Shown here one piece after another: positions 9,883 through 26,449 of a DNA stretch of 27,444 nt (the first letter of the stretch is position 1; every line of letters starts with the position of its first letter). The notes beneath the pieces were generated by a model that had not been told where the DNA came from, did no database searches, and was given only the letters and a program-made list of their open reading frames with translations. A program made the position numbers and the translations under genes. The DNA comes from a virus. The stretch is from positions 1-27,444 of the IMG/VR virus record IMGVR_UViG_3300043446_002485. One strand, 5' to 3'.

Positions 9883-10095
9883 ATGGATAACATCGACCAA
9901 CACATTCAAAAGGATAGGGCAATTCTTGATGATCCACAAACATCCCCACAGGCGCGGAGACATACTGAAGAAGAACTTCATGCATTAGAAACTTATAAAG
10001 TGAATCATCCAAATGATGAGCATGATCCAACATCACTAGAACTTTATTGTGATACGCATCCTGATGCACTTGAGTGTAGAGTTTATGATGACTGA
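9883..10095 (+). CDS. cp12: CP12, Calvin-cycle inhibitor (auxiliary metabolic gene)
   Basis: 70 residues. The C-terminus, from SLELYCDTHPDALECRVYDD, is the CP12 C-terminal module: Cys56 and Cys65 with the canonical eight-residue spacing and the ECRVYDD end that enters GAPDH. The N-terminal half is a charged helical region without the N-terminal Cys pair of full-length plant CP12. Known: CP12 bridges GAPDH and phosphoribulokinase and shuts down the Calvin cycle. Cyanophage CP12 is thought to divert carbon to the pentose phosphate pathway for NADPH and nucleotides. This gene is the clearest sign of a cyanobacterial host. A stem-loop follows at once. Confidence 0.9.
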   Translation: MDNIDQHIQKDRAILDDPQTSPQARRHTEEELHALETYKVNHPNDEHDPTSLELYCDTHPDALECRVYDD

Positions 10096-10097
10096 TA

Positions 10098-10153
10098 CCA
10101 GTTACTAAACTGGCACACAGGGTCTTCCAATTTCTTGGGAGACCTTTTATAAT
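10098..10153 (+). promoter_or_regulatory. Stem-loop plus promoter cassette (terminator of CP12, promoter of 10176)
   Basis: Three elements in 56 bases. A small hairpin CCAGTT-acta-AACTGG (10098-10113) runs into the shared tag ACTGGCACACAGG. A ten-pair stem GGTCTTCCAA/TTGGGAGACC (10121-10144, one G-T pair) with loop TTTC is followed by TTTT, a good intrinsic terminator. A perfect TATAAT lies at 10148-10153. This is the arrangement of the PeSL cassettes described for T4-type phages. Because TATAAT overlaps the first possible ATG (10152), the downstream gene more likely starts at 10176. Confidence 0.7.
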
Positions 10154-10175
10154 GTTAAAGTACAATTTTCCAATC

Positions 10176-10757
10176 ATGTTTGAACCAGTAATTCCATTTA
10201 TCAAACAATATATTACAAAACACCACGAACTTTATAGTGGTCAATGTAAGGCAGAATATTGGGAGGAAATTCTTGCACGTTCTCTAAAAGAATCTGGGTT
10301 AGGTAGTGACTGGAAACCAGATTTTAATCATAAGTCTGGCGTTGATCAAACTATGAACAATGGAATAAGAATTAGTAATAAAGGTGGATCAATTGATAAA
10401 AATATTATTTCTTTTAGTGGATCCCGTCTGACAAAGTATAAAACATTAAACGAAAAACTTGAATTTTTGAGTGATAAAAAAGAAGATTATATTCTTTGTC
10501 TTGCAACAGATAAAGATGAATGGAAGAAAGGATCTAAACGATATTATTTTGTTGTAATTAATTCCAATACTTTAAATTATCACGAACAAGAATGGGAAGA
10601 AACATACGGACAACGGACAAATATTGGTCAACTTAATGGATGGAAGTGTTCTTCTGAAGTATTTGATGCTAAAATTATCAGATCTAACTCCGATCAACTC
10701 TGGACTGAAATGAAACTTGATTACTACGAAGAATTTTATGAAATTAATATTGGGTGA
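10176..10757 (+). CDS. Candidate type II restriction endonuclease
   Basis: 193 residues from ATG 10176; ATG 10152 lies inside the -10 box and is less likely. An N-terminal helix with Glu30/Glu31 is followed by HKSGVDQ with Asp57. The strand IRISNKGGS places Lys69 in an S-x-K version of the PD-(D/E)XK core (E...D-x9-S-N-K). Then come SFSGSRLTKYKTLNEKLEFL and the strand DYILCLA, a layout I associate with small type II restriction enzymes. The strongest support is context: it overlaps the methyltransferase gene by 20 bases. The Ser in place of the usual Glu is unusual. Alternatives are a phage protein of the same fold with another role, or an inactive relic. Confidence 0.5.
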   Translation: MFEPVIPFIKQYITKHHELYSGQCKAEYWEEILARSLKESGLGSDWKPDFNHKSGVDQTMNNGIRISNKGGSIDKNIISFSGSRLTKYKTLNEKLEFLSDKKEDYILCLATDKDEWKKGSKRYYFVVINSNTLNYHEQEWEETYGQRTNIGQLNGWKCSSEVFDAKIIRSNSDQLWTEMKLDYYEEFYEINIG

Positions 10758-11502
10758 TTGTTTAGATATTTTACCAACACTTGCAGATAATTCTGTAGAT
10801 ATGGTTCTATGTGACCTCCCTTACGGAACCACCGCATGTAAGTGGGATTCTATTATTCCCCTTGATAAATTGTGGGAACAGTATAATCGTATTTGTAAGG
10901 AAGATACTGCCATGGTATTCACTGCAGCACAACCATTTACTACTATACTGGCAGCATCAAATCTTGAGAACTTTCGGTATGAATGGATTTGGGAAAAACC
11001 ACAAGGAACAAATCCTATGAATTCAAAGGTTATGCCTTTGAAATCTCATGAAAATGTCTTGGTGTTCTATCGTAAGAAGTGTATTTATAATCCTCAAATG
11101 TGGCATTCCACTCCCTATAGTGGGTTTTCATCAAATGTTAGTAAAATTGGTGAAGTTTATGGTAGTGCTCAATCAAAACATCGCCACAACCCAGAGGGTT
11201 CTAGATATCCCAAAACAATTTTGAAATTTAAACAAGAGAAAGGATTACATCCTACACAAAAACCAGTTGCACTCATGGAATATTTAATTAAAACATATAC
11301 AAATCCTGGAGATATGGTATTAGATAATACTATGGGTAGTGGAACCACTGGAGTTGCTGCAGTTCAAACTGGACGTAATTTTATTGGTATTGAAATGGAT
11401 GAAACATACTATAAAATTGCAAAACAACGTATTGAAAGTGCTGTGCCAGTTGCCGAACTGGACCAAAACACCTCAAATCCCCTGGTAGATGCCCTATACT
11501 AA
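10738..11502 (+). CDS. DNA methyltransferase (beta-class, N6-adenine or N4-cytosine)
   Basis: 254 residues from ATG 10738, inside the end of the upstream gene. The catalytic motif IV is CDLPYGTTACKWD (Asp26-Leu-Pro-Tyr29, a DPPY variant). The conserved HPTQKPVAL is at 171-179, and the SAM-binding motif I is LDNTMGSGTTG at 195-205. The order IV before I defines the beta class. The target-recognition segment lies between, about 85-165. Length and motifs fit phage and type II methyltransferases. The 20-base overlap implies translational coupling to the candidate endonuclease. It could serve in self-protection of a restriction pair or in shielding phage DNA from host enzymes. Sequence specificity cannot be read from the protein. 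Confidence 0.9.
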   Translation: MKLILGDCLDILPTLADNSVDMVLCDLPYGTTACKWDSIIPLDKLWEQYNRICKEDTAMVFTAAQPFTTILAASNLENFRYEWIWEKPQGTNPMNSKVMPLKSHENVLVFYRKKCIYNPQMWHSTPYSGFSSNVSKIGEVYGSAQSKHRHNPEGSRYPKTILKFKQEKGLHPTQKPVALMEYLIKTYTNPGDMVLDNTMGSGTTGVAAVQTGRNFIGIEMDETYYKIAKQRIESAVPVAELDQNTSNPLVDALY

Positions 11503-13249: not shown

Positions 13250-15193
13250 ATGCATAAAAGTTATACTACTAATACTTTTAATCAAGAGATACTCCAGTGT
13301 GCTGCTCTTGCATTTTTCATAAACATGCCAAATGCATCTAATGGTGATTTTATTGATTACCTTGAAAACTTTTATAATGGTCAAGATCCAGAAAATATTT
13401 TAGATTCAATAAAAGCACAGTATAATATAAAAACTCATCTTGGTGTATTTCATACTTCTTCTGATGCTGGAAGAAGTTGGGTTAGATCTGCAATTGACAT
13501 TGCAAGATTTTTAATTAATAAATTGCATTTAAATACAAACTTTCAAATTCATCATCAGAAATCTAAATTTGGGTATTTCATAAAAGATGAATGTACTAAA
13601 AAAATATACACAGCATTAGATACTAAAAACATATCAAATAAACCAGATGTTTACAACCCAACAGATCTTTGGATTGTTAATAAAAACTATGAGAGAACAA
13701 TAAGAAAAGAACTTGGCACATATATCATTAGTAAGAAAGCAAATATAGTTGGCAATTATGCAACAAATCAGCATACTTATAAGTCAATATTAGATAAGTA
13801 TTATGAAAATGATCAACTCTTTCAAATTTCATTAAAGAAAGCAAAAGGATCTACTATTTCTATTGATGAAGATTACCGAAATAGAACAACTGCAACGGGT
13901 TTAAGTGTTGGATACAAAATTGTTGGAACTTTGATGAAATTTCAGCAAAGAAAAGCAGATATTGATCCATATACAAAGTTTCTTCTTGCATTTGATCAAG
14001 TTCTAACTGAAGGTAATAAACCAAATATATTAAAGTTTATTAATGATCTTGTAGATATAAAGAAGATTAACTATAGAGATGAAACTCTTCAACCAAATCT
14101 AATTTTTGAGTTAAATTATGAAGGAGTAAATATTGAAGATGGTGGCACAGAAAGATGGAAATTAGATACTCCAGGTGACACATTTAATATGCAAAAGTCT
14201 GGTGGAACTGCATGGTCTGGTGGTTTAAACACTAACGGAATACACCAAATATTAACAAACTATTCAGATTACAATCAAATATTTAAAGAAGTTCAAACTC
14301 TTCGTAAAGGTGCTTTTATGGAAATCTATAAAGGATTGACAAATGAAAGTAATATGCCAGGGGAGATTAAAACTATTTTTGAAAAATCTGAAATCATTTA
14401 TATGCAAAAAGATTTGATGAAAATTAAACAGTATTTAAATAATGATGCATACATTAGATTTCTAGTGCGTGCAGTTGAGAATTTATCAAGACCATATAGA
14501 GGTGAATTGGCAAAATATGGGATACATGGAGAGAATGAAGCACTTCAACTCACTAAAAAAGAAAAAACCGTAACTATTACTAAAGGTGGTGCAGAAAAAG
14601 AAGTTACTAAAACTGTAAGTACACTTAAGAAGGGTCAAACAATAACAAAATTGAGAACGAAACGTTTAATTGCTAGATCCACAGAAATAGAATATGATAG
14701 TATTATTAAAGGTAAAGTTGGTGATATTAAACCAAATGATTACATATTCATCACTGATAAGAATGGTAAACTTGAAAGTGGAACTAGAATAGAAAAAATA
14801 GATATTAGAAAAAGAGTTATTACTTTATCTGCACCATTAAAAGGTGGAACTGATTCAAAATCACCCGCAGCAACTGCTTTAATTTTGAATCCATGGCAAA
14901 CTAATGTGGTTTCTTCTCAAGATTTGGCAACAATTAGGGGAGTAAGAAGTCAAAAATATCTTGAAGAGAAGTTTTCTAAACTTCAGGCATTTTATATGTT
15001 TATGAGAGGTGGTAAACAGAGATTAAACGTTGTGTTAAAGAAACAAATAGTTTTGACCATATATGGATTAGTTTCCAAAAAAGGCGGAAAACTGTTTGAT
15101 CCTAACCTAACAAAGACTGTTATGGACAAAGTCTTTTCAAAAAATGCCATTTCAGATTACGTCATACCATCTTTCCTTATTGTTGGTGATTGA
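13250..15193 (+). CDS. Large late protein of unknown function with nuclease-like motif
   Basis: 647 residues, by far the longest unknown here, AT-rich in codon use, standing alone between a terminator and a promoter. Residues 131-143 (KPDVYNPTDLWIV) followed 50 residues later by LFQISLKKAKG (Lys196) recall a PD-(D/E)XK core in which Ser stands two before Lys; the candidate restriction enzyme at 10176 shows the same S-x-K. The middle has Gly/Ser/Thr-rich loops (SGGTAWSGGLN), and residues about 450-545 look beta-rich. The last 50 residues are helical. It could be a packaged or structural protein, or a nuclease. The fold assignment is an inference and weak. Confidence 0.75.
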   Translation: MHKSYTTNTFNQEILQCAALAFFINMPNASNGDFIDYLENFYNGQDPENILDSIKAQYNIKTHLGVFHTSSDAGRSWVRSAIDIARFLINKLHLNTNFQIHHQKSKFGYFIKDECTKKIYTALDTKNISNKPDVYNPTDLWIVNKNYERTIRKELGTYIISKKANIVGNYATNQHTYKSILDKYYENDQLFQISLKKAKGSTISIDEDYRNRTTATGLSVGYKIVGTLMKFQQRKADIDPYTKFLLAFDQVLTEGNKPNILKFINDLVDIKKINYRDETLQPNLIFELNYEGVNIEDGGTERWKLDTPGDTFNMQKSGGTAWSGGLNTNGIHQILTNYSDYNQIFKEVQTLRKGAFMEIYKGLTNESNMPGEIKTIFEKSEIIYMQKDLMKIKQYLNNDAYIRFLVRAVENLSRPYRGELAKYGIHGENEALQLTKKEKTVTITKGGAEKEVTKTVSTLKKGQTITKLRTKRLIARSTEIEYDSIIKGKVGDIKPNDYIFITDKNGKLESGTRIEKIDIRKRVITLSAPLKGGTDSKSPAATALILNPWQTNVVSSQDLATIRGVRSQKYLEEKFSKLQAFYMFMRGGKQRLNVVLKKQIVLTIYGLVSKKGGKLFDPNLTKTVMDKVFSKNAISDYVIPSFLIVGD

Positions 15194-15445: not shown

Positions 15446-15455
15446 CACCTCACAA

Positions 15456-26215: not shown

Positions 26216-26365
26216 ATGATCGCACAAAAACGCAAGGTAAGTGTCACTCTGTACATTGAGTGTTATGATGATCTAGATCTAGAAGATCTCAATTGGAGAG
26301 AAATATTAGACTTGCAGGGTGATGAAGAAGTCTATTCTACCATCAGAGATCACGATCCGTATTGA
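26216..26365 (+). CDS. Unknown 49-residue protein
   Basis: Starts MIAQKRKVSVTLYIECYDDL with a good CAGGAG seven bases upstream and its own promoter. A basic beginning is followed by an acidic body (DLDLEDLNWREILDLQGDEE). Strand-then-helix layout. No family recognised. Probably made early along with the acidic gene. Confidence 0.66.
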   Translation: MIAQKRKVSVTLYIECYDDLDLEDLNWREILDLQGDEEVYSTIRDHDPY

Positions 26366-26368
26366 TGG

Positions 26369-26449
26369 TGTGCCAGTTCTTATAGTGGCACAAGTATCAT
26401 AATATTATATCACGATGGTGTTATGTGTGCCACTATAAGAACTGGCACA
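26369..26449. repeat. Perfect 24-bp inverted repeat with 33-base loop
   Basis: Arms 26369-26392 and 26426-26449 are exact reverse complements. The arm ends TGTGCCA and TGGCACA are themselves complementary, so each arm can also fold alone. The right arm contains AACTGGCACA, the tag shared with the stem-loop cassettes; the left arm carries it reversed. The loop is AT-rich. It lies four bases after a stop, so a bidirectional terminator or protein-binding cruciform are the likely options. Confidence 0.88.

Follow-up and report, generated by a model that had tools for sequence, protein, structure and literature searches.

Complete type II restriction-modification pairs are well documented in the lytic viruses of algae and amoebae, but they are little described for marine and freshwater cyanophages in the literature covered here. 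Does the viral DNA analysed in this work (IMG/VR record IMGVR_UViG_3300043446_002485; 27,444 nt, hereafter the window) encode such a pair? Two overlapping genes raise the question: R, for a protein of 193 residues, and M, for a beta-order DNA amino-methyltransferase (coordinates in Table 1). An earlier note on the sequence had proposed that they belong together, and its reading of the genes was borne out: the translation of R holds D57 and S67-N68-K69, the two genes overlap by 20 nt (10738-10757), M has intact DLPY (residues 26-29) and GSGTTG (200-205) motifs, and an open reading frame (ORF) resembling CP12 lies directly 5' of R. From sequence and structure models together, we consider it very probable that R and M are a phage-borne type II restriction-modification pair, with a nuclease of an undescribed family. 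M would methylate a short DNA site, and packaged phage DNA would arrive methylated and hence protected. R would cut the same site where it is unmethylated, using a PD-(D/E)XK core with an acidic helix (E30/E31), and its target would be unmethylated DNA in the same cell, whether that of the host chromosome or of a second infecting phage that lacks the system. Cleavage by R, and a role against host or rival DNA, are inferred. DNA matches of the window point to the Synechococcus phages S-SRM01, DSL-LC03 and S-CREM1; a lytic lifestyle is assumed, since the record is only a 27-kb virus fragment.

The sequence of R gave nothing significant in Pfam, PHROG, NCBIfam, PADLOC, the PDB sequences, INPHARED phages or PLSDB plasmids. 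Relatives were found in IMG/VR, from 97% down to about 28% identity, and these were likewise without above-threshold matches to the catalogued restriction enzyme families (Pfam, NCBIfam and PADLOC models). The family comprises at least 33 viral contigs, mostly alike in gene arrangement. Two pattern scans of bacterial and archaeal genomes returned no R, and the 21 matches of the looser pattern all fail the R profile; because these scans require exact motifs, distant cellular relatives may have been missed.

In contrast to these sequence searches, structure prediction returned the PD-(D/E)XK fold that the earlier note had suspected. The AlphaFold model of R, built from 16 sequences, has a predicted local distance difference test score (pLDDT) of 91.4 and a predicted template modelling score (pTM) of 0.85. 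Its top VIA-align match is the type II enzyme ThaI (PDB 3ndh), with Z 9.8 over 160 of the 193 residues (model range 1-193), followed by Eco15I (Z 8.2), NhoI (8.1), EcoRV and HinP1I (both 7.1), and then DpnI and SwaI. ThaI shares the PD-(D/E)XK fold with R along its whole length and is of similar size, but is only 13% identical and gives no sequence-level match. The first 49 VIA entries are all nucleases and only the 50th (Z 4.6) is not, in a comparison that was drawn from Foldseek's own candidates and may thus miss families outside that list. Foldseek itself gave modest E-values (1.7e-3 at best), and we therefore assign the fold because the listed matches agree with one another and because of the catalytic pattern. 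The model also matches A0A482IIW3 in BFVD, which has no name in the tables (TM 0.85, 32% identity).

The catalytic pattern is conserved far into the family. Among 23 aligned R sequences, down to 28% identity, K25, W29, E30, E31, W46, N51, H52, G55, D57, K69, R84, T86, K94 and W140 are invariant. Among members found later (L182, which is partial, L189 and L191) there are departures at W29 or N51, and L189 and L191 retain D57 and S-N-K. The alpha-beta core and the catalytic Asp and Lys of PD-(D/E)XK enzymes are present, D57 just before strand 58-59 and K69 in strand 65-74. In contrast, residue 67, where D/E-x-K would have its acid, is Ser or Gly across the family and never acidic, giving a core D57-x9-(S/G)67-x-K69. 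A Ser at this position also occurs in solved PD-(D/E)XK enzymes such as Cfr10I and NgoMIV, and membership of R in the fold does not rest on an acid two residues before the Lys. Between the window and three relatives, the ratio of nonsynonymous to synonymous substitution rates (dN/dS) is 0.14-0.22 for R and 0.09-0.13 for M. Since Ser/Gly is conserved and R is under purifying selection, the missing acid is a stable trait of the family (PD-SxK) and not decay. Of the two explanations that the earlier note had offered for the Ser, a new subclass fits, whereas a dead enzyme does not. The conservation of E30/E31 and their position in a helix suggest that this helix may replace the missing acid in metal binding.

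M matches PF01555 (E = 1.5e-31) and the PADLOC model MTase_II (E = 2.2e-83), and the methyltransferase motifs of a type II pair are intact, with HPTQKP at residue 171 and NTMGSGTTG at 197-205 besides DLPY. We take it to methylate adenine at N6, as D-x-P-Y in beta-order enzymes makes likely. R keeps company with METHYLTRANSFERASES, in that a methyltransferase adjoins it in nearly every evaluable contig. Two of the 33 contigs classified are cut at the contig end; in 28 of the remaining 31 a methyltransferase ORF overlaps R or lies 60 nt or less from it, and in two more (L024 and L025) M stands behind an HNH-like gene, so that nuclease and methyltransferase form one module in 30 of 31. As a control, 21 of 312 other ORFs on the same contigs have such a neighbour. 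The earlier note had raised the prospect of homologues occurring widely without a methyltransferase beside them, and almost none were found. Four types of partner occur: M itself, an enzyme with motif I before SPPY (L017, L034, L129, L140), a DPPYNIGKDFGN beta type (L118, L127, L142, L145) and a TSPPYN type encoded 5' of R (L029-L031, L146).

Seen from the side of M, the association is equally tight. All of its 80 nearest relatives have a nuclease gene in the same 5' slot, which is R in 15 and a second nuclease family, alt-R, in 65. Alt-R usually overlaps the start codon of M and matches the PADLOC type II restriction enzyme model PDLC03515 REase_II (E = 2.4e-10); its structure model (pLDDT 90) gives PD-(D/E)XK matches. 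It appears under the names T4-GC 685, PSSM7_054 and, in S-BM3, 'restriction endonuclease'. R and alt-R share the slot beside the same methyltransferase, the fold, and an aligned K-x-E helix and core Asp. However, their sequence similarity is not significant in profile-profile comparison (hhalign P 0.07 and 0.23), even though the alignment pairs the helix and the Asp, and alt-R has a canonical E-I-K (D69...E78-I-K80) in place of S-N-K. In a tree of 59 M sequences, R-linked and alt-R-linked genes interleave, with eight changes, at least five of which are forced by well-supported branches. L061 (alt-R) and L067 (R) are sisters whose DNA is collinear around the module at 88-95% identity, except for a stretch that begins with the start codon of the nuclease and ends shortly inside M. 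The same holds for L026 and the isolated Prochlorococcus phage P-SSM7, where collinearity is lost at either end of the nuclease gene; taken together, the flanks of both pairs are 81-95% identical. R and alt-R have been exchanged repeatedly (at least 5-8 times on the M tree), and cleanly at gene borders. Since the exchange takes place beside one M, either nuclease should be usable with the same M, and both should cut the site that M protects. This in-place exchange supports indirectly, as its simplest reading, a common site for R, alt-R and M. The dam-like PSSM7_055 of P-SSM7 is an orthologue of M (80% identical), but the gene 5' of it is alt-R and not R; the module is annotated there only as a hypothetical protein and a DNA adenine methylase. 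The window and L002 differ by a synonymous divergence (dS) of 0.11 for R and 0.47 for M, and the R and M of the window therefore have different histories.

Several observations weigh against a restriction-modification pair. The (D/E) of the catalytic motif is absent from R, and several R-linked M genes are interrupted, by an HNH gene or by the bases TTAG. On one R contig (L011/L027, 464 kb; R relative at L011:5001-5582) no methyltransferase lies closer than about 5 kb, though four occur elsewhere on it. Alt-R is present without an M orthologue in the isolates ACG-2014f (L169), S-SSM4 (L170) and S-BM3 (L168), which calls for caution on a strict dependence of alt-R on M. Finally, palindrome frequencies pointed to no recognition site, since almost every 4-bp palindrome is scarce in R and alt-R phages alike. 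As a separate observation, ACG-2014f, S-SSM4 and S-BM3 each have one other, distant N6/N4 methyltransferase elsewhere.

Could R and alt-R instead be free-standing PD-(D/E)XK homing endonucleases, similar to I-Ssp6803I and lodged by methyltransferase genes, with homing behind the replacements? I-Ssp6803I is among the structural matches of both proteins (Z 6.4 for R; for alt-R Z 9.6, and first in the Foldseek ranking), cyanomyoviruses are rich in homing endonucleases (PMC3037559), and an HNH gene entered the same module. Nevertheless, we judge this improbable, because homing would explain neither the four methyltransferase types beside R in 30 of 31 contigs nor why every one of the 80 M relatives has either R or alt-R at that position. 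Moreover, R is structurally closer to ThaI and other restriction enzymes than to I-Ssp6803I, and homing endonucleases are mobile, with varied sites and no obligate partner, whereas R is tied to its methyltransferases. Slightly less credible still is an R that survives as a relic without catalytic activity, or that serves DNA processing in some other, resolvase-like way, leaving M alone for anti-restriction methylation. The acidic residue before K69 is indeed missing, and Hjc-type resolvases share the fold of R, at lower Z. However, D57, K69, E30 and E31 are invariant, the dN/dS of R is as given above, and none of the 80 nearest M relatives is without an adjacent nuclease. A modification-dependent nuclease acting on methylated host or rival DNA, with M protecting against something else, is the least likely of the three. 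The folds nearest to R do include NhoI, Eco15I and DpnI, but the tight coupling of R to several methyltransferases suggests that its partner is there to protect; in addition, the scores of EcoRV and HinP1I are level with that of DpnI, and ThaI, a nuclease of unmodified DNA, ranks highest.

The interruptions of M are of two kinds. HNH homing-endonuclease-like genes lie between nuclease and M at L012:5659-6309, L024:6590-7390, L179 and L190. Next to the insertion, the N-terminal portion of M is of a divergent type with low dS between phages, which suggests co-conversion. Thirteen contigs, L179 and L190 again among them (L121, L125, L179, L180, L181, L182, L183, L184, L187, L189, L190, L191 and L131) have an invariant TTAG after the DLPYG codons of the M relative (GGT TAG C), which breaks the frame. 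TTAG is also found in a more distant methyltransferase (L188), and a pattern allowing any four inserted bases returned TTAG alone. Both parts of the interrupted gene are open over long divergence. In several pairs the 5' half is far less diverged than the 3' half (e.g. dS 0.07 versus 1.6), and this unevenness suggests that gene conversion was the means of spread. With a +1 shift at the stop the product would read DLPYG-S-TTACKWD, and the break is possibly a split gene, a homing scar or a site of recoding. The M of the window is of normal sequence, without TTAG. At L024:904-5943, in a phage contig, some 25 tRNA genes lie directly 5' of the R-M module, together with a permuted transfer-messenger RNA of cyanobacterial type.

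We advance one broader proposal only tentatively, and think it rather unlikely to hold as a whole: R would found a virus-restricted PD-SxK family of type II enzymes, the cyanophage slot beside one methyltransferase would exchange two unrelated nucleases of the same specificity, and some M would be made by recoding (+1, at GGU UAG C), which would couple protection to a translational switch.

How does the proposed R-M pair compare with known viral systems? The type II enzymes of chloroviruses (CviAI, CviJI) are thought to degrade host DNA (PMC7019647), whereas with marseillevirus pairs (melbournevirus mel_015/mel_016) host DNA is not degraded and exclusion of rivals has been proposed (PMC7253447). 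Like the predicted R-M pair, these are type II pairs of lytic viruses encoded by adjacent genes; unlike it, they have eukaryotic hosts and are biochemically studied. The present data favour neither host DNA degradation nor rival exclusion as its role. A virus-borne type II pair is already known as a kind, and no description of this particular pair was found in the literature covered, which leaves subscription papers mostly outside. As far as the sampled databases and papers show, what is new is the R family with its PD-SxK core and the finding that nucleases have replaced each other repeatedly, one gene for another, next to a single methyltransferase, to which may be added the apparent absence of R from sampled cellular genomes, by pattern scans. 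If the pair is functional, widespread cyanophages would be armed against host or rival DNA and would bring the antidote with them, and R would represent a restriction enzyme family not described before, its active site being a variant. The natural exchange beside a constant methyltransferase would offer a ready setting in which to ask whether two unrelated enzymes have converged on one site.

Table 1. Position of R, M and the elements 5' of them in the window.
Feature	Coordinates	Strand	Basis and remarks
CP12-like gene	9883..10095	+	70 aa; ORF list; PHROG 627, E = 8.4e-30, function unlisted; context of R only
Terminator/promoter-like cassette: two hairpins and TATAAT	10098..10153	+	Fold statistics, relatives; recurrent in the phage of the window
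First hairpin	10098..10113		
Second hairpin	10119..10146		
TATAAT	10148..10153		
R, predicted type II restriction endonuclease	10176..10757	+	193 aa, from ATG to end of stop; PD-(D/E)XK, D57...S67-N-K69, helix E30/E31
M, beta-order DNA amino-methyltransferase	10738..11502	+	254 aa, from ATG to stop; overlaps R by 20 nt

A longer R of 201 aa is possible from the ATG at 10152, but the methionine of MF(E/x) is the start in almost all relatives, including the nearest one, which is 97% identical. The product of the gene 5' of R is presumably CP12, a name taken from the earlier note and from the conserved C-terminal CxxxPxxxECRVYDD. Its orthologue also lies 5' of R in L002, L007 and L016, and 5' of alt-R in several loci. 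The terminator-promoter cassette proposed between the two genes stands as a structure, its two hairpins being followed by TTTTATAAT: the fold has z = -4.9, with none of 200 shuffles equally stable, and the stems differ in sequence among relatives while pairing is kept. A consensus scan of the region showed neither a sigma-70 pair nor a terminator. Like elements are found at 15455, 26440, 26717 and 27169, and the cassette is thus a general feature of this phage. The recurrent unit at these gene borders is of AACTGGCACA type with a hairpin, in some cases followed by TTTATAAT. Elsewhere in the window, a 647-aa ORF at 13250-15193 has no PHROG match, and positions 26361-26447 form a long, near-perfect inverted repeat, TGCCAGTTCTTATAGTGGCACA ... 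TGTGCCACTATAAGAACTGGCA.
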